Shown here: piece after piece, positions 2,514 to 19,872 of the stretch
Layout: the number at the start of each line of letters is the position of its first letter
Numbering within the stretch: the first letter of the stretch is position 1
DNA from: a virus
IMG/VR virus record: IMGVR_UViG_3300040789_000003
Span: 1-20,719 of that record
Reading direction: 5' to 3' (one strand)
Length of the DNA: 20,719 nucleotides
Notes under the pieces: model-generated
The model's input: the letters and a program-made list of their open reading frames with translations, nothing else
The model's database searches: none
Told to the model about the DNA's origin: nothing
Program-made: the position numbers and the translations under genes

Positions 2514-2822
2514 ATGAAATTCAAAGGAAAAGTAACTCATGTAACACCTACAGAAAATGGTGAGGACAAAAAAGGTAATCAAACTATGAAGAACAACTTC
2601 GTAGTAGAAGAAACAGAAGGGAAATACCCTAGCAAAATTCTAATCAACCAGTACAAGAGCGGTGAACACGTTCAATACTTTAAAGAAGTTAACGTTGGTG
2701 AGGTGGTCGAGGTTGAATACTCTACAACAGTAAGCGAGTACAATGGTAAACACTACGGAAACAATAACATGTTCAGATTAGAAGTAATTGAAAAAGCTGA
2801 CTTTATAGACGCTCCTTACTAA
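2514..2822 (+). CDS. DUF3127-like OB-fold (SSB-type) protein
   Basis: The 102-residue protein resembles DUF3127, a Bacteroidota family with an OB-fold related to single-stranded DNA-binding proteins. The visible pattern is KGKVTHVTPTENG at residues 4-16, KNNFVVEETEGKYPSKI at 26-42, then GEVVEVEYSTTVSEYNGKHY near 62-81, which matches the family order of strands and the conserved EYNG-x-Y turn. The likely role is ssDNA binding during phage replication or recombination, in the cytoplasm. Its own promoter lies just upstream, and it sits immediately before the terminase genes. Binding activity is inferred from the fold. Confidence 0.65.
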   Translation: MKFKGKVTHVTPTENGEDKKGNQTMKNNFVVEETEGKYPSKILINQYKSGEHVQYFKEVNVGEVVEVEYSTTVSEYNGKHYGNNNMFRLEVIEKADFIDAPY

Positions 2823-2886
2823 TTAAAAACTTAACATAATAACGTGAATTTTTCAGATATTGAAATAATAATTAAAAAAATAGAAG

Positions 2887-3363
2887 ATGCCAGCGCCTAA
2901 AGGAAACAACTACTGGGAATTTAGAAACAAGCACGGAGCAAATCACAAGTATACTCCTGAAAATCTGTGGGAAGAAGCAGTAGCCTATTTTGATTGGATG
3001 AAGGAAAGGGTTTGGAACAAGAAGGAAGCAATTAAAAGCGGAGAGCTTGCTGGAAGCGTTATGGATGTGCCTACCCAAACCCCAATGAGTATAGAGTCGT
3101 TTTGTTTGTTCGCTGATATAAGTCGTCAAACCTTAATAAATTATGAAAGTAACAAAGAAGGATACCAAGATTTTTTTGAAGTCACAACACGCATAAGGAA
3201 TATTATAGACAGTCAGCAGTTTGAGGGGGCTACTGTAGGCGCTTACAATCCTAATATAATAGCTAGGAAACTAGGTTTAACAGATAGGAGAGATATTACA
3301 TCAGACAACAAGCCATTACCACCTACTCAAATCATATTCACAGATGATATAAACGATGTCTGA
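2887..3363 (+). CDS. terS: Terminase small subunit (P22 gp3-like)
   Basis: The 158-residue protein fits the gp3-type small terminase family. It opens MPAPKGNNYWEFRNKHGA, with WEEAVAYFDWMKER at about 29-42, then SIESFCLFADISRQTLINYE at 68-87 (the DNA-recognition helix-turn-helix) and FEGATVGAYNPNIIARKLGL at 112-131. It would recognise the packaging site and regulate the large subunit. The start fits the family N terminus; no Shine-Dalgarno is present. It overlaps the large terminase by 8 nt, as expected for a coupled pair. Confidence 0.85.
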   Translation: MPAPKGNNYWEFRNKHGANHKYTPENLWEEAVAYFDWMKERVWNKKEAIKSGELAGSVMDVPTQTPMSIESFCLFADISRQTLINYESNKEGYQDFFEVTTRIRNIIDSQQFEGATVGAYNPNIIARKLGLTDRRDITSDNKPLPPTQIIFTDDINDV

Positions 3364-5260: not shown

Positions 5261-5421
5261 GAGAGGTGTTTGGTTTTATGGTGACTTTAAACGACTTATC
5301 AGAGGGATGTATGATAAAACAAAAAAAAATACTTAAATTGCCTGTGTCAGATATACATCAACAAATGATTTATCGAAGTTGGTTAACACATTGCGACAGG
5401 AAGTTTGAAGAAACGCTATGA
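5158..5421 (+). CDS. -1 frame extension of the chaperone-like gene
   Basis: From the slip site this frame runs 87 codons to the stop at 5419-5421, which overlaps the next gene's ATG (ATGA). Its sequence is plausible as a real domain: FDQINKQEDYLVKSLAP, then EKLGEVFGFMVTLNDLSEG and a closing KKILKLPVSDIHQQMIYRSW. No ATG opens the frame near the junction; a TTG at 5188 could start a separate 77-residue product. The likeliest product is the fusion made by -1 frameshifting, analogous to gpGT, where the extension contacts the tape measure protein. Confidence 0.5.
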   Translation, partial: FDQINKQEDYLVKSLAPNNSKYSEKIKAAGYEKLGEVFGFMVTLNDLSEGCMIKQKKILKLPVSDIHQQMIYRSWLTHCDRKFEETL

Positions 5422-5858
5422 GTGAGAAGTATATAAACGATTTAATCGAACAATCAGTATCACAGTTGCCCATCTCATTAGAGTTGGGCTTTGGTACTTT
5501 AAAAGACTTTGAATTAACTATAGCTTCTGAAAACTACGGTCTTCCGTTAATGTGGATACTGCCACACAATCAGTCAGCATCTAGCATACAATCTAGTAAT
5601 GTAATGATAGATTCCCACGCTATATCTGGAATACTTCTAACAGATGATGATGTTGACCAAACAGCACAATCAAGACGTGAGAATGCTGAGTTCGCTGATA
5701 GCTTCATAGATACATTCGTATCAAAGCTAAATGAGAGTGATAAAATTACGATTAACTCTATAAGTAAATCTCCAATATATCGTGTTCATAATTCAATATC
5801 ACAAGGAAAAGCCTTTGTTATCAATTTAACCATGCCAAAACAAACGCAATGTTGTTAG
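5418..5858 (+). CDS. Putative head-tail/tail completion protein
   Basis: The 146-residue product has no clear catalytic motif. A central LPLMWILPHNQSA (42-54) and an acidic-polar helix further on (AQSRRENAEFADSFIDTFVS) resemble small Bacteroidota phage proteins found next to gp10-type neck proteins. It starts in the stop of the -1 frame extension and overlaps the following gene by 10 nt, placing it firmly in the virion operon. A tail-completion or neck role is inferred mostly from position; the alternative is an unrelated small structural protein. Confidence 0.45.
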   Translation: MSEKYINDLIEQSVSQLPISLELGFGTLKDFELTIASENYGLPLMWILPHNQSASSIQSSNVMIDSHAISGILLTDDDVDQTAQSRRENAEFADSFIDTFVSKLNESDKITINSISKSPIYRVHNSISQGKAFVINLTMPKQTQCC

Positions 5859-6304
5859 ATGATTTAAAAGACATCGGAGACAAGTCAGTAAAATCATTGA
5901 GGCAACAACTCAAAGATAAGGATAGGGTCGCTACTGGAAAAACTTCTGAAAGCATTAAATCAATCATAACAGAAGAAGGAACTAATATCATCTTCAAGAT
6001 AATCGCTAGGGAGTTTACTAACTTATTGGAGAAGGGCAGACCATCTACTGGGGTTGGTGTTAATCCATCAAAGGAATTTGTAGATAAGATTCAAGAGTGG
6101 ATAGATGCCAAAGGGCTTGATTTACCAGCTTATGCGGTAGCAAAGAAGATTCACGACAAGGGTTATAAGGGTACTGACGGCTTGATAACTATACCGTTGC
6201 AAGAAATACTTACTGATATAAAAATAGCAGTAAGAAGGCATTATAAGGAAATAACTAAAACAAATATAATCAATGGGCTTCGAGGTAATTCAACGACCGT
6301 CTAG
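5849..6304 (+). CDS. HK97 gp10-like tail completion protein
   Basis: The 151-residue protein shows the pattern of gp10-type completion proteins: RVATGKTSESIKSI at about 26-39, FTNLLEKGRPSTGVGVNPSK at about 56-75 (the family's x-x-x-EKGRxPTG turn), then IQEWIDAKGL and AYAVAKKIHDKGYKGTDGLI. Such proteins cap the tail at the head-tail junction. The 10-nt overlap with the preceding gene and the 32-nt overlap with the large gene after it show a compact operon. The completion role is family-based inference. Confidence 0.6.
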   Translation: MLLDDLKDIGDKSVKSLRQQLKDKDRVATGKTSESIKSIITEEGTNIIFKIIAREFTNLLEKGRPSTGVGVNPSKEFVDKIQEWIDAKGLDLPAYAVAKKIHDKGYKGTDGLITIPLQEILTDIKIAVRRHYKEITKTNIINGLRGNSTTV

Positions 6305-9269
6305 ATACATTTTTGAAAGCGGACAAAGTTTTTCGGTGCAAAAGCATGTGTTTGAAGGGTCTACATACTTCGGAGGCTCGGGGTTAACGCTTGGGAATAG
6401 GTTAACAGTCTCTTTTTGGGTTGAATTAACTGGTATAGGTGATAATCCTATAGTTTCTTTTATTGATTCTTTAAACGCGAATAACAATTTTGTAATTTAT
6501 GGGTCTGTAGTAGGTGGTAATTTAACTATAAACGCTGGTAATTTAACCAATATAGACACTAGTATAGCTCTTGATGGACTGACTCATGTTGCTGTAACTG
6601 CTAACGGGACTAGCGGAAAAGTTTATATTAACGGTGTATTTGTGGTTAATATAACAATACCAGTTTCTAAATGGTTAACACATGATGAGTTTTATATTGG
6701 TTACGATGGAACAGAGTTTTTAGATGGTATAGTTGATGATGTGGTTGTGTTCAATGGTGATTTATCAAAGGACGAGATTTCAAAGCTTGCTTTATCACCT
6801 TCTTTGTATCAATTAAAAAAATGGGGTGCGCTATATTCGTTTAAAAACAGAGAAGAGGTAATAGATGAAATTAACGGGCTTGAATTAACAGTAGTAAGCC
6901 CTAACCTTTCAGTATTTGGCAAGGAAGGGATAAACGAAACACCTCAATTTTTGTCACGATGGAATGCTGGTGGTGGAGAACTACCTTTGCTTTATAAGAT
7001 TGAAAACGATTTATTTCCTACCAACAAAGTAGATACAGTTTTTGATATAATAGGCGCAACGGAGTCACTAGGAAGAACATCAATAGAGACTAGTGCAGAC
7101 CATTTGTTAGACATTGGAGACTTAGTTTTTCACAAAGACTGCGAAAATGAAAGTTATAATGGCACTTACAGGGTTGTACAGATAGACTCTCCTACTGTTT
7201 ACATTGTCGGTGTTGCATTTGTTGGCGATGAAACACAAGGAAGCACACAAAAACGATACGAGAACTACGCAATAAACGTAACTGTTTACGCTGGTTTATC
7301 AGATACGCACCCATTGAGTGAATTAAAACCAATAGAAGAGATAGGTAAGCTTAGCGTACAGCCAGACACAGACAACATATCTTACATTGATATAGTAGAG
7401 TTAGTTAAATCAAAACTATCCATTCAAAACCCATTATTTAAAGAGTATTACCCAGTTGATTTGAGTGCTTTCACTTACTTTTATGTAGAAGTAAGTGAGA
7501 CGTACAGGGTGGGTGGTATAACTATCTTTGAATCAACGCCAACTGTAGACTCTATTAATAGTTGCGCAATAGATACTGAATTATTTACCGACCCTAACTT
7601 TGATAACGAACTAACATCATGGGAGCAGCTATGGACACAAGAGGAGTGGATTGCTGGGGTTAACGAGGTGACTAGTTCTTTCAGTACTCAACCAGTCACA
7701 AAGACACTAACACAGACGGGTGTTACTATCAGAAGCGGTGTAGGTTATAGGATAGAATGGGATAGTGATTTTGAAGGTTATAAGGAAGTTGTTTTGTTGT
7801 TTGTGTCATATAAGGGTGGTGTTCTTAGAATACGATCTAGCGATAAATCTGGTGTAATAAACAGAACTTTTTTAGGAGATTATCCATTAGTTGGTATATA
7901 TATAGTAAGCTTAAACGGTATTGATTCAAGCGATGTTTCTTTATCAAAATTTTCAATAACAGAGTCTAGTTGTAATGTTTTCCTGTTTGCCACTAATTCA
8001 ACTAAGCAGTTTCAAAACAAAACAGGAGGGTCTATGGGTGATTATGAAATTCACCAACTAGCCGAATCTAAGTTTATGACTGATTTTGATAAGCCTGTTT
8101 TATTTAAGGGCTATCCTTTTGCTTTATCTACCATAATAACAAAGGAGTCATTAGAAGGGTCTTTGAACGCAGATTCTTTATATATACGCAATATCACAGA
8201 GGGGGTAGATTACAAGATAGACACTTACGGTGACGGCGTTTACAGGGTTGGCGGTGACTTAGATAGTGACTTAGAAGAGATTGATGTTGAAATATATTCA
8301 GTGCCTCAGAACTACTTCACACTTTATTCTAACGGTACTTTTGAAGATAATACAGAGGTCGGTATTGTTAATTTCAACAGCCCTGAAACGGGCACGGTGA
8401 ACATTCTTAAAGGAATATCATTATCGAACGCTTACTCTGGAAGACATTCCTATTTAGTATCTTCACCAGAATTTACATTTAGCCCATTGCTTGGTGGTTC
8501 TTTATTCCCTGTTCAGGATATAGTTGGTGGTCTTGATTATATAGTAAGTGCTAAAATACAAATCAACAATTTCAATCAAAACGATTTAGACGATACTTAC
8601 CTTACATTATGGGTTTTAGATAGTTCAAACAATCGTATATGCGAAGATGAAGTGTTTATACCTTACAACGGTGGGGGTTGGCAATCATTTTCTAAAAAAG
8701 TATCTATACCAGAGGGTGTCACTTCTTATAAGATAGCATTCTTTAAGGGAGGCACTACATCGGCATACGGGGTATTGTCAGCCAATATTGACAACATACA
8801 AGTGGTAGGTCCATACGAAAAGGTTTCTGAAACTAAAACAATTCGAATAGACAATGAATGTGGAAATAGCGAGATATATTTAACATGGTTTAACTCATTA
8901 GGTGGTTGGGAGCAATACGTATTCAAGGCTAAAAAGGCATACAAGAGAACAATCGAGGGCAGCAAGTCTATTCGTAGGGATGTGTTTAATGACTGGGACA
9001 ACTCCTTTATAAATGGGGAGTCTGATTTTGATTTTACGGAAATTGACACTTACAAAACCATCACGGTAAGAAGTCAGCACATATCACTATCTGAAAAATT
9101 AGCTGTAGAAAAGATAAAGACTAGCATTAAAGTACAAATGTTAGTTGACGACACGCTAACAACTGTAAGAGTAGACAAGGGGTCCTTCACCATATACGAA
9201 GACGTAGACAAGCTTCACACGATAGAATTTGACATTGATTTACCATTGGAATACATTCAAACTATATGA
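6273..9269 (+). CDS. Large LamG-domain tail protein, probable receptor-binding protein
   Basis: The 998-residue protein is the largest in the window. Residues about 25-170 form a concanavalin A/LamG-type domain: TVSFWVEL, then THVAVTANGTSGKVYINGVFV, and DGIVDDVVVFNGDLSKDEI near its end. Further on are two jelly-roll-like carbohydrate-binding segments starting near DPNFDNELTSWEQ and SNGTFEDNTEV. The C-terminal part (ECGNSEIYLTWFNSLGGWEQ) resembles Bacteroidota phage tail-tip proteins. This fits adhesion to surface glycans. The gene overlaps the previous one by 32 nt and the next one by 4. Receptor binding is inferred, not shown. Confidence 0.6.
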   Translation: MGFEVIQRPSRYIFESGQSFSVQKHVFEGSTYFGGSGLTLGNRLTVSFWVELTGIGDNPIVSFIDSLNANNNFVIYGSVVGGNLTINAGNLTNIDTSIALDGLTHVAVTANGTSGKVYINGVFVVNITIPVSKWLTHDEFYIGYDGTEFLDGIVDDVVVFNGDLSKDEISKLALSPSLYQLKKWGALYSFKNREEVIDEINGLELTVVSPNLSVFGKEGINETPQFLSRWNAGGGELPLLYKIENDLFPTNKVDTVFDIIGATESLGRTSIETSADHLLDIGDLVFHKDCENESYNGTYRVVQIDSPTVYIVGVAFVGDETQGSTQKRYENYAINVTVYAGLSDTHPLSELKPIEEIGKLSVQPDTDNISYIDIVELVKSKLSIQNPLFKEYYPVDLSAFTYFYVEVSETYRVGGITIFESTPTVDSINSCAIDTELFTDPNFDNELTSWEQLWTQEEWIAGVNEVTSSFSTQPVTKTLTQTGVTIRSGVGYRIEWDSDFEGYKEVVLLFVSYKGGVLRIRSSDKSGVINRTFLGDYPLVGIYIVSLNGIDSSDVSLSKFSITESSCNVFLFATNSTKQFQNKTGGSMGDYEIHQLAESKFMTDFDKPVLFKGYPFALSTIITKESLEGSLNADSLYIRNITEGVDYKIDTYGDGVYRVGGDLDSDLEEIDVEIYSVPQNYFTLYSNGTFEDNTEVGIVNFNSPETGTVNILKGISLSNAYSGRHSYLVSSPEFTFSPLLGGSLFPVQDIVGGLDYIVSAKIQINNFNQNDLDDTYLTLWVLDSSNNRICEDEVFIPYNGGGWQSFSKKVSIPEGVTSYKIAFFKGGTTSAYGVLSANIDNIQVVGPYEKVSETKTIRIDNECGNSEIYLTWFNSLGGWEQYVFKAKKAYKRTIEGSKSIRRDVFNDWDNSFINGESDFDFTEIDTYKTITVRSQHISLSEKLAVEKIKTSIKVQMLVDDTLTTVRVDKGSFTIYEDVDKLHTIEFDIDLPLEYIQTI

Positions 9270-9475
9270 TATACTTAGAAGTGTTTTGGCAGATAATACA
9301 GGGGTGGTTTCTTTACTTGTCCCCATCAAAGGAGTCTAAGGAAAGAAGGGCTGAAAGGATGAAGCATTGCAAACCATGCGCTAACAATGTAAAGGGTGTT
9401 TGCGTTTCTTGTGGGTGTGTGTTAAAGGCAAAGACACTAGTTAAAGACGCTAAATGTGACTACGGTAAATGGTAA
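9266..9475 (+). CDS. Small Cys-rich zinc-ribbon-like protein
   Basis: The 69-residue protein has C35-x2-C38, then C46-x2-C49-G-C51, and C64 before a terminal YGKW. This CxxC / CxxCGC / C-GKW pattern is common in small phage proteins encoded among tail genes, and it suggests a single zinc site. The N-terminal 20 residues are aromatic and hydrophobic (VFWQIIQGWFLYL), possibly membrane- or protein-binding. It overlaps both neighbours by 4 and 7 nt. Its role in the virion or its assembly is unknown. Confidence 0.6.
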   Translation: MIYLEVFWQIIQGWFLYLSPSKESKERRAERMKHCKPCANNVKGVCVSCGCVLKAKTLVKDAKCDYGKW

Positions 9476-11427
9476 GAATAAAGATAAACAACACCTTCTT
9501 AGAACTAGAGAGAGACTTTCAGATAGCCCTTAACTTATCAGTAGGTGACATTGCCGAACTACAATCTAGAGCTGGAAACCATACCTATTCTATTCAGATA
9601 CCTTGGACAAATAACAACGCTAAGGCATTTAATTTTGTAGCCACTAACAACATTGATTTTAAAGGGTCTAAGAAGGTAGATGCAGAGATTTACCAAGGTC
9701 AAAACAGGGTACTAAAAGGATTTATAATAGTAAAATCGTACTCAGAAAAAATCTTAAAGGCTGTATTTTACTCGGGAAATAGTTTCTGGATAGACGCGCT
9801 AGGACAGCTAAAACTTACAGATATAGATTTTAGTGAGTTAGAACACCTTTGGAATGAGGATTCAATACTGAATAGTCTTTCGAACGGATGGGAGGATGGA
9901 TATACGTATCCTTTTATAAATTATAACGACAAAAGCAATACTTCGTCCACCGAGTTCACAGCCAAACAATTTAGACCTTGTATGTTTGCTAAGTATTTGC
10001 TAAACAGAATTTTTAACGACATATACATAATTCCTAAAGGTCAGGTTTTATCAAATCCTGTTTTTGAAAAGATGATATTAGCATCTTCTAAGATAGATGA
10101 AAGCTCTTTTAAACCAGTCAAGTATAACTTTTTAGGAAAACCGATAGGAAGTTCAGACGTAATAAGTACCGAGAGTGAAAAGAAATGGATTTATGACCCC
10201 CAGGATTTAGGTGTTTTCGACATTAAGTATAAGTATTTTAACGAAAAAACAACTGGATATACAACAACACTAATGAATGCTTCTGATGGTAGATATACTG
10301 CTCAGACTAGAATTAATGTAAGGATAAAAGCCGAATCTATTAAGTGGAGAAATGCTGGCAATTTTGTGGGGGATAGCTATTACAAGTATATAGCAGCCTA
10401 CTCTATATCTGTTAGGCGTAACGGAACAGAAATAATTGATAGTCAGGTTATAAATGAAGTTATTACTTTAGATGCTGGTGACTATATAGAGGTTTTCACA
10501 AAGAACAATAGCGATGTTTATAGTATCCTGTTCAATCCTAATGAGAATTTTCTAGTTAACTATTTAGATATTAGTTTAGATAGTCCAGTAACAGGAACAG
10601 CTATTACACCAGCATCATTTATACCAGACATGACTCAGTTAGAGTTTGTTAAAGATATAATGCTCATGTTTGGTTTGCAAGCTGACTACAATGAGACCAC
10701 AAGGGCGATAGACTTCTTTAGTTACGAAGAGGTAATGCTTAATGAGGCTGTAGATTGGAGTAACAAGATAGACGGAAAGCCATCGTTTGATTATACAGCA
10801 CTAACATCTAGGTATTCACAAGTAAACAACTTGAAGTGGTCAGAAGATGACAAGGACTTAGTATTAGAAGCTTATAAAGCAGCTAACAATAAAGGAGTTG
10901 GCGAAGGGTTTATAATCATTGATGATGATTCATTAAAAAAAGAATCTGATTTAATCACATTGAAAGCGTCCCCTACTTATGGAGAATTTACGCAGAATTG
11001 GAACGGATTAAACATACCATTCATACCAGAAGAGGGTAAGTACAGATACTTGTTGGTTAATCAAAACGTAGATACTATAGATGTGTTAGGTGTTGCCAAT
11101 ATAAGTATTGAAGGAGAAAACACAACGAAGGTTAATTATGCTTTCTTCGATGACTTATCGCACTTGAATAATGAGTTTTACGAGTCGCTAAGTTTTGAGG
11201 AAAAATTTAATAGAAGTTCATTAAAGGAAAATTATAGAGTTCTTGAAAACATTCTTAACAATGGATACATAATGAAGGTTAATGTGTTCTTAAAACCACA
11301 AGATATAACCTCGATTGATTTTAAGCGACCTAGATACATAAGACCTTTAGGGTTGTTTGCAATAAACAAAGTGAATAAATATGACTTCTCAAACAACTCA
11401 ACTGAAGTTGAACTAACTAAGCTATAA
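9469..11427 (+). CDS. Putative tail-tip/baseplate protein
   Basis: The 652-residue protein starts with a beta-rich segment, INNTFLELERDFQIALNL, and a conserved-looking SRAGNHTYSIQIPWTNNNA (residues about 34-52). This is reminiscent of large Bacteroidota phage proteins beside the tape measure that are assigned to the baseplate or distal tail. The remainder is rich in aromatic beta-strand patterns, with no catalytic motif found. It lies between a receptor-binding candidate and the tape measure gene, and its stop overlaps the tape measure ATG. Which distal tail component it is cannot be told from sequence by eye. Confidence 0.5.
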   Translation: MVRIKINNTFLELERDFQIALNLSVGDIAELQSRAGNHTYSIQIPWTNNNAKAFNFVATNNIDFKGSKKVDAEIYQGQNRVLKGFIIVKSYSEKILKAVFYSGNSFWIDALGQLKLTDIDFSELEHLWNEDSILNSLSNGWEDGYTYPFINYNDKSNTSSTEFTAKQFRPCMFAKYLLNRIFNDIYIIPKGQVLSNPVFEKMILASSKIDESSFKPVKYNFLGKPIGSSDVISTESEKKWIYDPQDLGVFDIKYKYFNEKTTGYTTTLMNASDGRYTAQTRINVRIKAESIKWRNAGNFVGDSYYKYIAAYSISVRRNGTEIIDSQVINEVITLDAGDYIEVFTKNNSDVYSILFNPNENFLVNYLDISLDSPVTGTAITPASFIPDMTQLEFVKDIMLMFGLQADYNETTRAIDFFSYEEVMLNEAVDWSNKIDGKPSFDYTALTSRYSQVNNLKWSEDDKDLVLEAYKAANNKGVGEGFIIIDDDSLKKESDLITLKASPTYGEFTQNWNGLNIPFIPEEGKYRYLLVNQNVDTIDVLGVANISIEGENTTKVNYAFFDDLSHLNNEFYESLSFEEKFNRSSLKENYRVLENILNNGYIMKVNVFLKPQDITSIDFKRPRYIRPLGLFAINKVNKYDFSNNSTEVELTKL

Positions 11428-14976: not shown

Positions 14977-15954
14977 ATGGCAGTAACGGTAGATTTAGAT
15001 TATACATACAATGGGCAAGAGGTCTTTGATGTTCTCTTAGAACCAGCATTACAGAACGAGGACATCTTAAAGATGTTTAACGTTCTAACAAACATTCGCT
15101 CAAAGCGACAAATGATAACAGCCGACCAGTTCGGTAGGGTTTCATTTGCTGGGGATGGTACTTGCGATATTCCAACACCTGTAGGAAGTACCGTGTTAAA
15201 AAACAGAACGCTTGAAACAGGGGAGGTACAAATTTACATGACTCAATGCGCGAGAGAATTTTCCGAAGTTCTAGCAGAAGAGGCATTGAATACAGGGATT
15301 GAAATATATGACCTTTCACAAACTGAAATCAATAACAAAATAATTCTTCCATTGTTACAAGAAGCAGCGAAGAGAGATTTATTTTACTTGATAAGCTTCG
15401 GTGATTTAGATAGTGCTGATGAGTTACTTTCAGCTGCTCATGGCTTATGGCCGACATTAATTGACGGTGTTGATGACTATACTGTTATTGATGCAGAAGT
15501 TACATTTAACGCTATACTTGAAGAAGATGAAGCTTTAGAGGCATTTGAAAAAATGTGGTCACTTGCCCCTCAGAAGTTAAAGGCAATGAAAGACAAGATT
15601 GTTCTTGCGGTTACTGGTAGCTTATATGACAACTATGAGAAGTCGTTAAGAGACAAGGGGATAGACAACGGTTGGACAAGACTACAAGAAGGTACTCCAA
15701 GCTTGAAATTCAACGGAATTGAAGTAGTTCCAATGAGAGGATGGGATAATGGAATCGCAGAATTTGAACTTGATAATCCTCACAGAGCATTGTTGACGGT
15801 AAAAGAAAATCATTACATCGGAGTTGAGGACATGAAGAAAACAGCTACTCTAAGCTTTTTCTATGATAGAAATTCTCGATTAAACAAATACGAGGGTAGA
15901 TACCGAGTAGGTTATCAGTTTGTTCATAAGGATTTACAGGTAATAGCTTACTAA
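14977..15954 (+). CDS. Major capsid protein (HK97-fold)
   Basis: The 325-residue protein begins MAVTVDLDYTYNGQEVFDVL, typical of Bacteroidota phage capsid proteins. It has an N-terminal arm, then a helix-rich domain with DIFL-like and LLQEAAKRDLFYLISF segments, and a beta-rich C-terminal part ending ...RYRVGYQFVHKDLQVIAY, which matches the HK97 E-loop/P-domain layout in order and size. The gene follows the protease-scaffold by 4 nt and overlaps the next by 1 nt. It would form the icosahedral shell, presumably after cleavage by the upstream protease, although no cleavage site can be assigned by eye. Confidence 0.8.
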   Translation: MAVTVDLDYTYNGQEVFDVLLEPALQNEDILKMFNVLTNIRSKRQMITADQFGRVSFAGDGTCDIPTPVGSTVLKNRTLETGEVQIYMTQCAREFSEVLAEEALNTGIEIYDLSQTEINNKIILPLLQEAAKRDLFYLISFGDLDSADELLSAAHGLWPTLIDGVDDYTVIDAEVTFNAILEEDEALEAFEKMWSLAPQKLKAMKDKIVLAVTGSLYDNYEKSLRDKGIDNGWTRLQEGTPSLKFNGIEVVPMRGWDNGIAEFELDNPHRALLTVKENHYIGVEDMKKTATLSFFYDRNSRLNKYEGRYRVGYQFVHKDLQVIAY

Positions 15955-16499
15955 TGGGGTGTAGATTAACAGGAGGTATCATCGCAGAGTGCGATGACCT
16001 CATACAAATTGGGGGTCTGTATAAGAAATCATGGCTTGGTAACGTAGAAGACTTGACGTTAGATTATGATGAAGACGGTTATGTTAATGACATCACCATG
16101 GCAGAGTACGGGTTTCTTTACGCTTTTGAAAGCAAGAAGAACAGTTTTAGTGCTGGACACTCCACTGGTGACTCTGGGGCAGGGGCTAATAAATTCTTTA
16201 TACACACAGGGGTATTAAAGCTATTCCCTAACACACCAGCAGAAGACGAGGCGATAAAAGACCTACTAGTTTCTAGTGTGTTTATGATTGTTAAGACTCA
16301 GAATGATAAGTTTTTAATCTACGGTGCTAAGAATGGTATGAATGCGGTTACTGAGCAGAACTCAGGACAAGAGGCTGGCAGCGACATCACAGAGATTGTA
16401 ACACTTAAGGGCGAAGAGAAAACTAAGCCTTTGAGAATCAAGATAGGCGCGGATGCAGCAGCAACAGAGGCGGTGCTTGATGGGTTGCTAGAAGCATAA
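15954..16499 (+). CDS. Putative major tail tube protein
   Basis: The 181-residue protein opens MGCRLTGGIIAECDDLIQIGG, a motif I associate with Bacteroidota phage tail tube proteins found directly after the capsid gene. A central NKFFIHTGVLKLFPNTPAED and the closing EEKTKPLRIKI support an all-beta tube-type fold. It starts one base after the capsid stop and is followed by a terminator-like hairpin. Tail-tube identity rests on this pattern and position; other minor structural proteins are possible. Confidence 0.5.
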   Translation: MGCRLTGGIIAECDDLIQIGGLYKKSWLGNVEDLTLDYDEDGYVNDITMAEYGFLYAFESKKNSFSAGHSTGDSGAGANKFFIHTGVLKLFPNTPAEDEAIKDLLVSSVFMIVKTQNDKFLIYGAKNGMNAVTEQNSGQEAGSDITEIVTLKGEEKTKPLRIKIGADAAATEAVLDGLLEA

Positions 16500-16520
16500 T
16501 TAAAAAAAACAAAATAAATG

Positions 16521-16560
16521 AAAGGCTATGTATTAATTTATGTAGCCTTTTTGTATTTTT
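16521..16560 (+). terminator. Rho-independent terminator after the tail tube gene
   Basis: AAAGGCTA (16521-16528) pairs exactly with TAGCCTTT (16543-16550) around a 14-nt A/T loop, and is followed by a T-rich run (TTTTTGTATTTTT, 16548-16560). It ends the capsid-tail transcript about 60 nt after the stop, just before the accessory cassette. Confidence 0.7.
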
Positions 16561-16565
16561 AACCA

Positions 16566-16769
16566 ATGAACCATTCAGAGGCATTAGAACTATTCAAACA
16601 GATAGACGGCAAGATAAGTTGTAAAGCATCATTTGGAGATGTGGCTAAATTTATTAAGCTTGTTAAGTACGTTAATCAATTTAAGAAAGTAAAGCTATCT
16701 ACTTCAAAATGTCAGTTTAGATCAACCATGAATGAGATTAAATTCTTCTTAGAAAAGGTAAATGATTAA
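16566..16769 (+). CDS. Hypothetical protein (67 aa)
   Basis: This 67-residue, helix-rich, Lys-rich protein (HSEALELFKQIDGKISCKAS near the start, closing EIKFFLEKVND) has no recognised family and no transmembrane segment. It lies 5 nt after the terminator run and overlaps the next gene by 8 nt, so it opens the accessory cassette. It may be an adaptor or regulator for the following enzymes, but nothing in the sequence indicates which. Confidence 0.45.
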   Translation: MNHSEALELFKQIDGKISCKASFGDVAKFIKLVKYVNQFKKVKLSTSKCQFRSTMNEIKFFLEKVND

Positions 16770-17361
16770 AATTATACAGATTTGTTTTGATGAAGAATCA
16801 AAAGCTAATTGCTTCAATCATGAGAATGTAGAAGTATTTTTTAACGAAGAAAACCCCCACCCATATTTCGAGAATAAAATAATAGCTGACAAAGTTCCTA
16901 ATATAGAAGCTGATTATATAGGTGTTTTTTCACACGCATTTAAAAAGAAAAGAAAAAAGGATATTGATTTTATAATTAGGAAAATAAACAAAAATCCTGT
17001 TTACTCATTCTTTAGCAATATAAAGGATAAGAACGTGATTAGTCACATGGAGAGCTTACACACAGGCAGCAAAGAGATACTAAACTATATTTGTTTAAGG
17101 ATTGGATTAACTCCATCAAACAAGCTTGCACCAATATATCAAAACCACTTTATAGCAAGAAAGGAAATATATAACGATTATGTGACATATCTAACCCATG
17201 CAATTGATTTGATGAATAATGATAAGTGGTTAATTGATAGGTGCAACAAACCAGCTATGAGAACGGGAAAGTACGCAACATATACGCTTCATACATTTGT
17301 GTTAGAGCGTTTATTTTCAGTATATTGTAAAAACAAAAACATTAAAATTGAAATGATATGA
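16762..17361 (+). CDS. Putative glycosyltransferase
   Basis: The 199-residue protein has features reminiscent of small phage-encoded glycosyltransferases: EADYIGVFSHAFKKKRKKDI at 49-68, YQNHFIARKEIYNDYV at 126-141, and a closing YTLHTFVLERLFSVY at 174-188, which resembles the YxxxxxxERLFSV block found near the C terminus of several bacterial glycosyltransferases. No catalytic DxD motif stands out, so a sugar-nucleotide enzyme is a tentative call. It overlaps the methyltransferase gene by 4 nt and is one of three consecutive group-transfer enzymes here. Whether the acceptor is a host surface glycan or a virion protein is unknown. Confidence 0.4.
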   Translation: MIKIIQICFDEESKANCFNHENVEVFFNEENPHPYFENKIIADKVPNIEADYIGVFSHAFKKKRKKDIDFIIRKINKNPVYSFFSNIKDKNVISHMESLHTGSKEILNYICLRIGLTPSNKLAPIYQNHFIARKEIYNDYVTYLTHAIDLMNNDKWLIDRCNKPAMRTGKYATYTLHTFVLERLFSVYCKNKNIKIEMI

Positions 17362-18071
17362 AAATCACACACCATTTAAATATAATCAATACAACAGCTA
17401 AGGTAATCAACGCTAGGACTTACCTAGAGATAGGTGTATGTACAGGTTCTAATATTAACAACGTAAGGATAGGAGCAAAGACTGGTGTAGACGTTAACGA
17501 TATTCGTGGAATAAAGGAAGGTATAGAGATGATTAAATCATCTTCTGATGACTTTTTCAGAACCAATGAAAGGAAGTTTGATTTGATTTTTATTGACGGT
17601 GACCACTCACAAGAGCAGTCAATGAAAGATTTTGAGAACGCTTTAAAATGCGTGAGTAATAAAGGTCTAATCTTACTTCATGACGTCTACCCTCCGAATT
17701 TAAAGCACATGGAATTAAACTTATGTGGTGGTGTTTACTTGAATGCTCAGGATATAAACAATAGATTTAAATGCGTTGTGTTTCCTTATGATTACGGAGT
17801 GATGATAGTTAATCCAAGAGTGACAAAAAACAAGAAAACACCTATTTTTGAAGGCAATGACTTCTTAGAGATAAAGGATGATGTGTTTAACTATGGTCAC
17901 GAGGTAAGAGATATTTCAAACTTAATCACAGAGGACAAAAAAAGCTTTGATTTGTACGAAAAATCAGACGAAGAAATTAAGGATATACACCAAGAGGTAT
18001 TCGGAAACAAGCCGAAAGGGAGGTATATAAGAGAAAATGTAATTGCTAAAATTGAAGCCTTTGGAAAATAA
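17358..18071 (+). CDS. Class I SAM-dependent methyltransferase (Methyltransf_24-like)
   Basis: The 237-residue protein has the class I methyltransferase motifs: YLEIGVCTGSNINNV (22-36, motif I with the Gly-rich turn), TGVDVND (42-48, the acidic residue contacting the ribose), FDLIFIDGDHSQEQS (74-88) and GLILLHDVYPP (103-113). The pattern fits the Methyltransf_24 group, often found in sugar and polysaccharide modification. A basic C-terminal extension (KGRYIRENVIAKIEAFGK at the end) may anchor or bind a partner. It overlaps the sulfotransferase gene by 29 nt. The substrate is not known; its neighbours suggest a glycan. Confidence 0.6.
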   Translation: MKITHHLNIINTTAKVINARTYLEIGVCTGSNINNVRIGAKTGVDVNDIRGIKEGIEMIKSSSDDFFRTNERKFDLIFIDGDHSQEQSMKDFENALKCVSNKGLILLHDVYPPNLKHMELNLCGGVYLNAQDINNRFKCVVFPYDYGVMIVNPRVTKNKKTPIFEGNDFLEIKDDVFNYGHEVRDISNLITEDKKSFDLYEKSDEEIKDIHQEVFGNKPKGRYIRENVIAKIEAFGK

Positions 18072-18603
18072 GATAATAATCACAGGTACGGGTAGGGCTG
18101 GAACTACATTTCTAGTTCACCTACTTACCCTTTGTGGTGTAGATACTGGATTTAAGAAAGAAAATGCGGACATCTTTATAGATAATAAATCCTTTGGAGG
18201 GCTTGAATCATCAAGTCACGATCCCTATGTCTTGAAGTCTCCACACTTCTGTGATAAGATTGAAGATTTAAATAGTAAATACTTCATTGACTACGTTATA
18301 ATACCTATAAGAAGCCTAGAAAAGGCTGCCTCATCAAGAATTAGGGTTGGAAATAGCAATGGTGGTTATTGGGAGGCAACAAGTCAAGTTGGTCAAGAAA
18401 TTGTTCTTTTAGAAAATTTTTATAAAGCGATTCACTCATGTGCAAAATTAAACATAGATGTTATACTGATTGACTTCGATGTAATTATGAGTGAAAAGGA
18501 TGTGTTGTTTGTCACTTTAAGAAAGCCCTTCCCTAAATTAGATTACAACACTTTTATTAAATCTTACGATGAAATTTTTGATAAGAGAAAGATTACGCAA
18601 TAG
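18043..18603 (+). CDS. Sulfotransferase-like (PAPS-binding) protein
   Basis: The 186-residue protein shows the sulfotransferase 5'-phosphosulfate loop, ITGTGRAGTTFLVHLL at 13-28, and a plausible 3'-phosphate-binding segment with R90 and S98 (IPIRSLEKAASSR). The spacing of 8 between R and S matches the RNPxDVxxS-type motif. It would transfer sulfate from PAPS to a sugar or other acceptor. There is no ATG: the start is a TTG at 18043, 18052 or 18061, and the first beta strand starts just after 18061. It overlaps the methyltransferase gene. Compact size suggests a minimal member. Confidence 0.6.
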   Translation: MLKLKPLENKIIITGTGRAGTTFLVHLLTLCGVDTGFKKENADIFIDNKSFGGLESSSHDPYVLKSPHFCDKIEDLNSKYFIDYVIIPIRSLEKAASSRIRVGNSNGGYWEATSQVGQEIVLLENFYKAIHSCAKLNIDVILIDFDVIMSEKDVLFVTLRKPFPKLDYNTFIKSYDEIFDKRKITQ

Positions 18604-18608
18604 TTAAG

Positions 18609-18622
18609 CGGTTAGTTAACCG
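18609..18622. repeat. Palindrome CGGTTAGTTAACCG before the portal gene
   Basis: CGGTTA and TAACCG flank a GT centre in the 66-nt gap between the sulfotransferase and portal genes. It could be an operator or weak terminator stem. A -7-like TATCTTAG lies at 18648-18655, though no clear -33 TTG is at proper spacing. Confidence 0.35.
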
Positions 18623-18669: not shown

Positions 18670-19872
18670 ATGATTAAGATTATAAATAGGTCATACAATG
18701 ATACAAAGGTCGACCAGTCTGCGGAATGGAATGAAAACCTAGGTATACTTAATTTTGGCAGAGGTAACGCTTTCCCTACGCATCTAATTAGCGAGATAGA
18801 ATTTTCGTCTTGTGCAAACGCTTGTTTATCTGCTAAACATAAATTTGTAAGAGGTGGAGGTTTTGAGAATGAGTTTTTAAACACATTTTTAATAAATAGA
18901 AGCGAAGTTATTTCTAAGGTTGACAACAAAATAAGTCAAGATTTATCGTTTTTTGATGGTGCTTATGTGCTATTAACATTCAATTTTAAAGGTGTAATTA
19001 ACGAGATAAGACACTTACCATTCGAGAACACTAGAATAGGTAAGATTGATGAATTTGGCAATCCTAAATCATTCAAGTATAGCCCTAAATGGGGGCATAA
19101 AGGGGATGAAGAAAACCCAGATGCTGATTTCATAACTGAATATGACGCATTAAATCTTGATAAAGAATATATATTAGAAAAAATAAAAACCACGACAGGA
19201 GGCTATAGTGGTCAGGTTGTATATTTGAGTTTTGAAAGACCTTCTAAGAGAATCTATCCTGTTCCATTTTGGTATTCTGCAATTAATTGGATAGGTATAG
19301 ACGCTGCAATATCTGAATTTCACAAAAACAACATTGATAACGAGTTTCTTCTATCATACATGATCAAAATGGTAGGAGACCCTGATGAGTTGTTAAGAGA
19401 CGCAGAAGGAAAAGAGACTAAGCAAACTAAGGGGGAAGCGTTTAATGAGTATTTGACCACTCAATTTGCTGGAACAAAAAAAGGGGGTAAAACTATTACT
19501 CTCTGGTCAGATGACTCACAAAACTTTCCATCAATAGAGGCGTTTCCAAACTCAAACAATGAGAAGCTGTTTATAGCTATGGAGGAATTGACAAAGAAAA
19601 ACATAGTGCAAGCTTTCGGAATACCTAACCTAATAGCGAACATTGAGACGGCTGGAAAGCTTGGGGGGTCGGATGAAATTAACAACGCAGTCGCTTTGTT
19701 TAATGGTAATACAGAGATGTATAGAACGTTGCGTGAAGAAATGTGGGAGTTAATACTACAATTCTACAAAACACCATATAAAGGCGGTGTAAAAATTAAA
19801 GAATTTGAATTTAAAAATATAGCAAATGCTAATAACACTGGAGGATTTCAAGGAGCAAGTTCTAATTTCTGA
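18670..19872 (+). CDS. Portal protein
   Basis: The 400-residue protein fits the portal family of Bacteroidota siphophages. NFGRGNAFPTHLISEIE (28-44) and an ERPSKRIYPVPFWYSAINWI block (the conserved portal YPxPxW/Y region) are followed by the wing and crown segments with TKGEAFNEYLTTQFAGTKKG. The C-terminal region contains EAFPNSNNEKLFIAMEELTK and AFGIPNLIANIETAGKLGGS, typical of portals. It forms the dodecameric ring at the packaging vertex. It is slightly short for the family and sits far from the terminases, after the capsid and tail tube. It overlaps the next gene by 47 nt. Confidence 0.75.
   Translation: MIKIINRSYNDTKVDQSAEWNENLGILNFGRGNAFPTHLISEIEFSSCANACLSAKHKFVRGGGFENEFLNTFLINRSEVISKVDNKISQDLSFFDGAYVLLTFNFKGVINEIRHLPFENTRIGKIDEFGNPKSFKYSPKWGHKGDEENPDADFITEYDALNLDKEYILEKIKTTTGGYSGQVVYLSFERPSKRIYPVPFWYSAINWIGIDAAISEFHKNNIDNEFLLSYMIKMVGDPDELLRDAEGKETKQTKGEAFNEYLTTQFAGTKKGGKTITLWSDDSQNFPSIEAFPNSNNEKLFIAMEELTKKNIVQAFGIPNLIANIETAGKLGGSDEINNAVALFNGNTEMYRTLREEMWELILQFYKTPYKGGVKIKEFEFKNIANANNTGGFQGASSNF

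Follow-up and report, generated by a model that had tools for sequence, protein, structure and literature searches.

A virion-operon slot headed by a candidate glycosyltransferase in an environmental phage lineage, and its putative sulfotransferase-bearing variant

Described systems closest to the locus

Phage-encoded virion glycosylation is already known for a few mycobacteriophages. According to PMC12363180, which cites Freeman et al. 2023, the mycobacteriophages Che8, Corndog and Myrna glycosylate their capsid and tail tube with glycosyltransferases of their own. In chloroviruses, methylated capsid glycans are assembled cytoplasmically by virus-encoded glycosyltransferases and a methyltransferase (PMC7826918). 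Here we analyze a four-gene cassette in 20,719 nucleotides of viral DNA (hereafter the window; positions 1 to 20,719 of IMG/VR record IMGVR_UViG_3300040789_000003). It resembles the mycobacteriophage systems in that phage-encoded glycosyltransferases are proposed to serve the phage’s own structural proteins. It differs in that its genes are placed within the structural operon, flanked by the gene for a 181-aa protein and that for the portal, and are joined by methyltransferases and, in the window, by a sulfotransferase. With the capsid N-glycan machinery of chlorovirus PBCV-1 it would share virus-encoded cytoplasmic glycosyltransferases and a sugar methyltransferase; PBCV-1, however, is a eukaryotic virus with multidomain enzymes, and the sections of PMC7826918 consulted describe no sulfotransferase.

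Partial parallels also occur among other phages. The gp40-gp41 pair of Cellulophaga phage phi18:1 (PMC11946311) places a Methyltransf_24-type methyltransferase beside a glycosyltransferase in the structural module, but there the slot runs from head morphogenesis to protease and lacks a sulfotransferase, and the methyltransferase is annotated as a DNA methyltransferase. Phage-borne sulfotransferases are found in OM43 phages and in cyanophage S-SRM01, where glycosyltransferase and epimerase genes lie alongside, and their function has been called unclear (PMC10580990). Unlike the window protein, they are annotated as PF13469, and they are not known in a lineage-conserved virion slot. In Synechococcus phage S-SRM01 (L047), the annotated sulfotransferase, glycosyltransferase and nucleotide-sugar epimerase cluster at 5348-9732, and the glycosyltransferase also matches the window methyltransferase. 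In the open literature searched, we found no account of a virion-operon slot that is fixed in position, is headed by a glycosyltransferase conserved in the lineage but novel in sequence, and has a variant adding methylation and sulfation.

The window cassette and its predicted enzymes

The original prediction read the locus as four overlapping genes between a terminator and a palindrome. The gene layout and the left boundary are borne out: the ORF list gives four consecutive frames (Table 1), neighbors share 8, 4 and 11-29 bases in order (the last depending on the start chosen), and the terminator hairpin (-14.9 kcal/mol, z = -4.9) is equalled by none of its shuffles. The palindrome at 18609-18622, by contrast, does not stand out from random sequence: its z is -1.48, and 18 of 200 shuffles do as well. 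Homologues, including that of L142, place the sulfotransferase start at the TTG codon of the table, which makes the last overlap 11 bases. The cassette had also been said to split the tail tube gene from the portal gene. The portal assignment stands, whereas the upstream neighbor matches only PHROGs labelled unknown or “virion structural protein”, and no search backs the name tail tube.

Table 1. Positions of the cassette features and flanking genes in the window.
Feature	Position	Strand	Length	Remarks
Conserved virion-module protein	15954..16499	+	181 aa	Left edge in 40/40 surveyed slots; PHROG 19091, virion structural protein
Intrinsic terminator	16520..16560	+		Separates 181-aa virion gene from cassette; 13-pair stem and T run
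g1, small gene	16566..16769	+	67 aa	Place held in relatives by c5 (58-90 aa, mostly CxxC)
GTx, candidate GT-A-fold glycosyltransferase (GT111-like)	16762..17361	+	199 aa	Heads slot cassette; predicted fold
Methyltransferase, class I SAM (Methyltransf_24)	17358..18071	+	237 aa	PF13578
Candidate PAPS sulfotransferase	18061..18603	+	180 aa	Start codon TTG 18061; the open frame of 186 aa begins at 18043
Portal protein	18670..19872	+		Right flank of slot; PHROG 11226, E 2.5e-57

Genes for a ClpP-type protease, a probable major capsid protein and the 181-aa virion-region protein lie upstream of the cassette. GC content is 28-30% across the first two cassette genes, against about 35-42% just upstream. 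An assembly error is unlikely, since the cassette recurs at 99-100% identity in two other contigs, the 39,990-base IMGVR_UViG_3300040801_000790 and one of 4,837 bases. Portal relatives (25-27% identity) belong to Cellulophaga, Tenacibaculum and Bacteroides phages and indicate Bacteroidota hosts; judged from such sequence kinship, the host of this phage is probably a member of that phylum. No Bacteroidota-type promoter pattern occurs in the window, and sigma-70-type sites show no excess over shuffled sequence. The first cassette gene, g1, is 26% identical to a small gene at the equivalent place in the L148 genome. Its kinship with the c5 family is suggested via that genome alone, the c5 profile giving no detection. 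In most slots c5 precedes GTx (for example, L021 6682-6861 and L022 5508-5684), and small genes resembling it are also present in slots lacking GTx.

The glycosyltransferase, the weakest call of the original prediction, was strengthened by structure prediction. An AlphaFold2 model of GTx built from four sequences (pLDDT 77, pTM 0.77) has as its best PDB match residues 8-260 of WbbM (6u4b; Z 14.2, rmsd 3.4, 185 residues aligned), with GT6 enzymes clearly behind at Z 9.9 and below. Fold neighbors in a viral structure library include a phage DUF4422 protein and a glycosyltransferase of Cellulophaga phage phi18:2. WbbM acts on the K. pneumoniae O2a O-antigen; its N-terminal domain, which contains DUF4422, functions as a UDP-Galf transferase, and no other member of GT111 has been characterized (PMC12269835). 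By sequence, GTx gives nothing convincing in Pfam, NCBIfam, PHROG or PDB, and none of 24 members matches DUF4422 (PF14393) in a Pfam-A scan at E 0.1. GTx is accordingly named GT111-like rather than a GT111 member, because the fold agrees but no member matches DUF4422 by sequence; as a candidate GT-A/GT111-like glycosyltransferase it has a clear predicted fold, though such a fold by itself does not establish activity. A PF14393 search of the record was without match, as were its positive controls, and is therefore uninformative. A likeness of GTx to DUF4422 motifs, which we had presumed, served as a lead only. An assignment of GTx as Evf was rejected: a single member of the 24 reached 20.6 bits, below the cut-off of 25, and the predicted fold matches a glycosyltransferase.

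The cofactor motifs claimed for the other two enzymes were also recovered. The window methyltransferase (METHYLTRANSFERASE) carries the SAM-binding motif YLEIGVCTG and scores 48 bits on PF13578 (E 2.6e-12), where the cut-off is 26.3. It is 38% identical to the methyltransferase directly behind GTx in the L134 slot and 37% identical to a near neighbor of the L142 sulfotransferase. Its PHROG matches bear the label DNA methyltransferase. The top tblastn match, MT836422, was set aside, as the long GC-rich frames surrounding it are unlike this phage type.

In an alignment of seven phage proteins, both PAPS motifs of the sulfotransferase, TGTGRxGTTFL (5'-PSB) and PxR....AxSR (3'-PSB), are invariant and in order in all seven. 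A P-loop motif scan followed by a profile-led scan placed the family at 36 loci, about half of which match over most of the protein. Several members match Sulfotransfer_1 (PF00685) or Sulfotransfer_3 (PF13469) at 7e-4 to 1e-5, below the curated cut-offs; the window protein scores 11.7 bits and the best relative 26.2, both against 27. The protein is termed a candidate because this cut-off is not reached. A PF13469 search of the record gave no match, and the family profile found no PDB chain; PDB profile searches returned nothing convincing for either GTx or the sulfotransferase. The structural check that favored GTx was uninformative here: the single-sequence model reached a pLDDT of 47, and nothing can be read from its PDB matches.

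The neighborhoods of other family members fit a sulfotransferase. One adjoins two proteins that score above sulfotransferase cut-offs, and another (L043) lies two genes from an adenylyl-sulfate kinase that is above its own cut-off. Adenylyl-sulfate kinase is the enzyme that makes PAPS. The L043 kinase (2518-3249) has an extra N-terminal hydrophobic stretch and adjoins sulfotransferase and sugar-nucleotide genes, on a contig classed as viral. An alternative that we consider quite unlikely places the 186-aa protein among the P-loop phosphotransferases or kinase-like proteins, in which case the cassette would glycosylate and methylate without sulfation. Its score below all Pfam cut-offs and the unconfident model would suit this alternative; the two invariant, ordered PAPS motifs, the weak matches of several members to Sulfotransfer_1 and Sulfotransfer_3 and the neighborhoods just described argue against it. 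Taken with the GTx fold and the PF13578 match, they uphold the claim of three group-transfer enzymes within the structural module.

Sequence searches of isolate phages found neither GTx nor the sulfotransferase. No relative of either was detected in 84,980 bacterial and archaeal genomes by a scan that demands exact peptide patterns. The GTx family, found in phage contigs alone, is apparently phage-only; WbbM differs from it in this respect as far as that scan reaches.

The slot across the lineage

A first scan, led by GTx, gave 25 loci, in nearly all of which GTx is the first of a series of glycosyltransferase and methyltransferase genes bounded by the 181-aa gene and the portal gene. As this search depended on GTx itself, the survey was repeated with capsid and portal alignments. 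Counting only distinct contigs whose slot is complete, GTx is present in 36 of 40, and in 21 of 25 among those reached independently of GTx. The slot usually continues with several further glycosyltransferases, methyltransferases and sugar epimerases. Two cassette types recur: GT2b-GT2a-(TylF)-FkbM-c10-GT2c and GT11-GT2d-epimerase-FkbM-GT25-GT2e. Pfam backs most of these families; GT2b, GT2c and c10 have no Pfam match, and the first two are GT2-like by eye. At the minimal end, L123 holds GTx and one small gene and L116 holds GTx and one GT2. The isolate phage BS-TP3, with the order ClpP-capsid-gp4-gp5-portal and no annotated cassette gene, has an empty slot.

GTx divergence tracks that of the portal (Mantel r 0.86) and of the 181-aa protein (r 0.76), each at P 0.0005, and its mean identity is about equal to theirs. 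Because of this co-divergence, we regard GTx as a core gene of the structural module, and the genes behind it are the changing part of the slot. The original description of the whole cassette as a possible moron thus fails for GTx, while the term may fit the methyltransferase and the sulfotransferase. The slot of the window is the only one that holds a sulfotransferase, and its cassette is a reduced variant of the lineage-wide glycan locus.

No contig other than the window and its two near-identical counterparts showed the four genes in this precise order. Nevertheless, a survey of related phages, proposed as a check on the trio, found its members together elsewhere, so the outcome that the original prediction named as refuting, genes that are never found in company, did not arise. 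GTx and the methyltransferase adjoin in the same slot of L134 and again in the 39,587-base L148 genome, where the slot reads small gene, GTx, methyltransferase, portal. The L148 genome carries a same-family sulfotransferase next to its terminase gene, so all three enzymes are kept. The 172-kb contig L142 has Methyltransf_24, GT2, sulfotransferase and GT2-like genes in a row. L141 has a sulfotransferase, FkbM and GT92/GT2, after which a 566-aa open frame lies on the opposite strand. L042 has a glycosyltransferase, an unnamed gene, a sulfotransferase, a methyltransferase-like frame and DUF5672, and L040 combines glycosyltransferases, several sulfotransferases and a methyltransferase-like frame. 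By gene content, comparable trios thus lie side by side in unrelated phages. About as many contigs (L036, L039, L144, L147, L154) carry the sulfotransferase without such company; its association with glycosyltransferase and methyltransferase genes is recurrent, not universal.

Several other features of the slots were recorded. In slots of the GT11/GT25/epimerase type (L017 6575-8884, L019 6745-9003, L021, L025, L028, L032 and L034), a single open frame of about 736-769 aa encodes both ClpP-like protease and major capsid protein; each has its own gene in the other slot type and in the window. An IS1595-type transposase lies within the glycan slot of L031 (13780-14709), and genes for HNH-type endonucleases turn up in slots as well (for example, L028 15826-16281). 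In L035/L006 (5966-6535), GTx points the opposite way from the other slot genes and the adjoining capsid gene is truncated, through either an inversion or an assembly fault. The slots without GTx in L124, L125, L129 and L131 hold reverse-strand genes instead, each including one for a protein of 489-669 aa; a protein of this type is found next to the sulfotransferase cluster of L042 as well.

Candidate targets of the cassette

The original prediction left the glycan on either the host surface or the virion, and the position of the cassette in a structural operon does not by itself identify the acceptor. We consider it reasonably probable that the cassette represents, in a reduced form that bears a sulfotransferase, a virion glycan-decoration locus of a Bacteroidota-type phage lineage. 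Modification of virions in the cytoplasm is favored because the slot lies among virion genes and GTx co-diverges with them, because nearly all slot enzymes, GTx, the methyltransferase and the sulfotransferase included, have no clear membrane segments, and because the mycobacteriophages and chloroviruses provide precedents. A phage-encoded glycosyltransferase conserved with structural genes, as in phage virion glycosylation systems, is what was found here (36/40 slots; Mantel r 0.76-0.86).

The enzymes might instead alter a host surface glycan during infection (O-antigen, capsule or S-layer glycan), blocking superinfection or changing a receptor in the manner of serotype-conversion genes. The resemblance of GTx to an O-antigen transferase domain points in this direction, as do the GT11, GT25, GT2 and GDP-mannose dehydratase genes of other slots, which are of the kind found in polysaccharide clusters, and a cytoplasmic cassette could feed host lipid-linked glycan pathways. 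However, the GtrA flippase and temperate life style of gtrABC-type serotype conversion have no counterpart in this lineage’s contigs: among long contigs, which may be incomplete, GtrA (PF04138) was found in 0 of 17, integrase (PF00589) in 0 of 16, including the 39,990-bp twin, and a Bac_transf priming transferase in none of 16-17. Almost no membrane-bound glycosyltransferase occurs in the slot, and siting and co-divergence with late structural genes would suit early or lysogeny genes poorly. We therefore hold action on the host surface to be unlikely.

Far less probable is that the three enzymes act on hypermodified bases of phage DNA, although DNA-hypermodifying phage glycosyltransferases are known (cited in PMC12619734) and the PHROG label of the window methyltransferase would agree with such a role. 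The thymidylate-synthase-like hydroxymethylase of DNA hypermodification systems (PF00303) was found in 0 of 17 contigs, which may be incomplete. Moreover, Methyltransf_24 here and FkbM and TylF in other slots are small-molecule or sugar methylases, and the locus sits in the structural module. Because homologues of flippase, priming transferase, integrase and thymidylate synthase were not found, the virion is favored over both the host surface and DNA, and these absences from long contigs are moderate evidence for virion modification.

If the virion is the target, the enzymes would work in the host cytoplasm, presumably late in infection. GTx would transfer a sugar from a host nucleotide sugar, perhaps a donor of galactofuranose type if its nearest structural relative is a guide; the acceptor would be a virion protein or a short glycan attached to one. 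The methyltransferase would then methylate the sugar with SAM and the sulfotransferase would sulfate it with host PAPS, in an order that we suppose. Most relatives would build a longer glycan with the extra glycosyltransferases, the FkbM and TylF methyltransferases and the sugar epimerases or dehydratases of their slots. The glycan may coat the particle and alter its charge, adsorption or recognition.

More tentatively, we propose that this lineage keeps one virion-operon slot for swappable glycan cassettes, headed by a conserved and apparently phage-only glycosyltransferase family, and that the virion glycan of the window lineage is methylated and sulfated, forming a sulfated sugar coat. If true, this would suggest that the particles of an environmental phage lineage are glycosylated as a rule and in diversifying ways, with the GTx-bearing slot present in at least 36 contigs, and phage sulfotransferases would gain a concrete, testable substrate. 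Sulfated sugars could change the charge, adsorption, decay and recognition of the particles.
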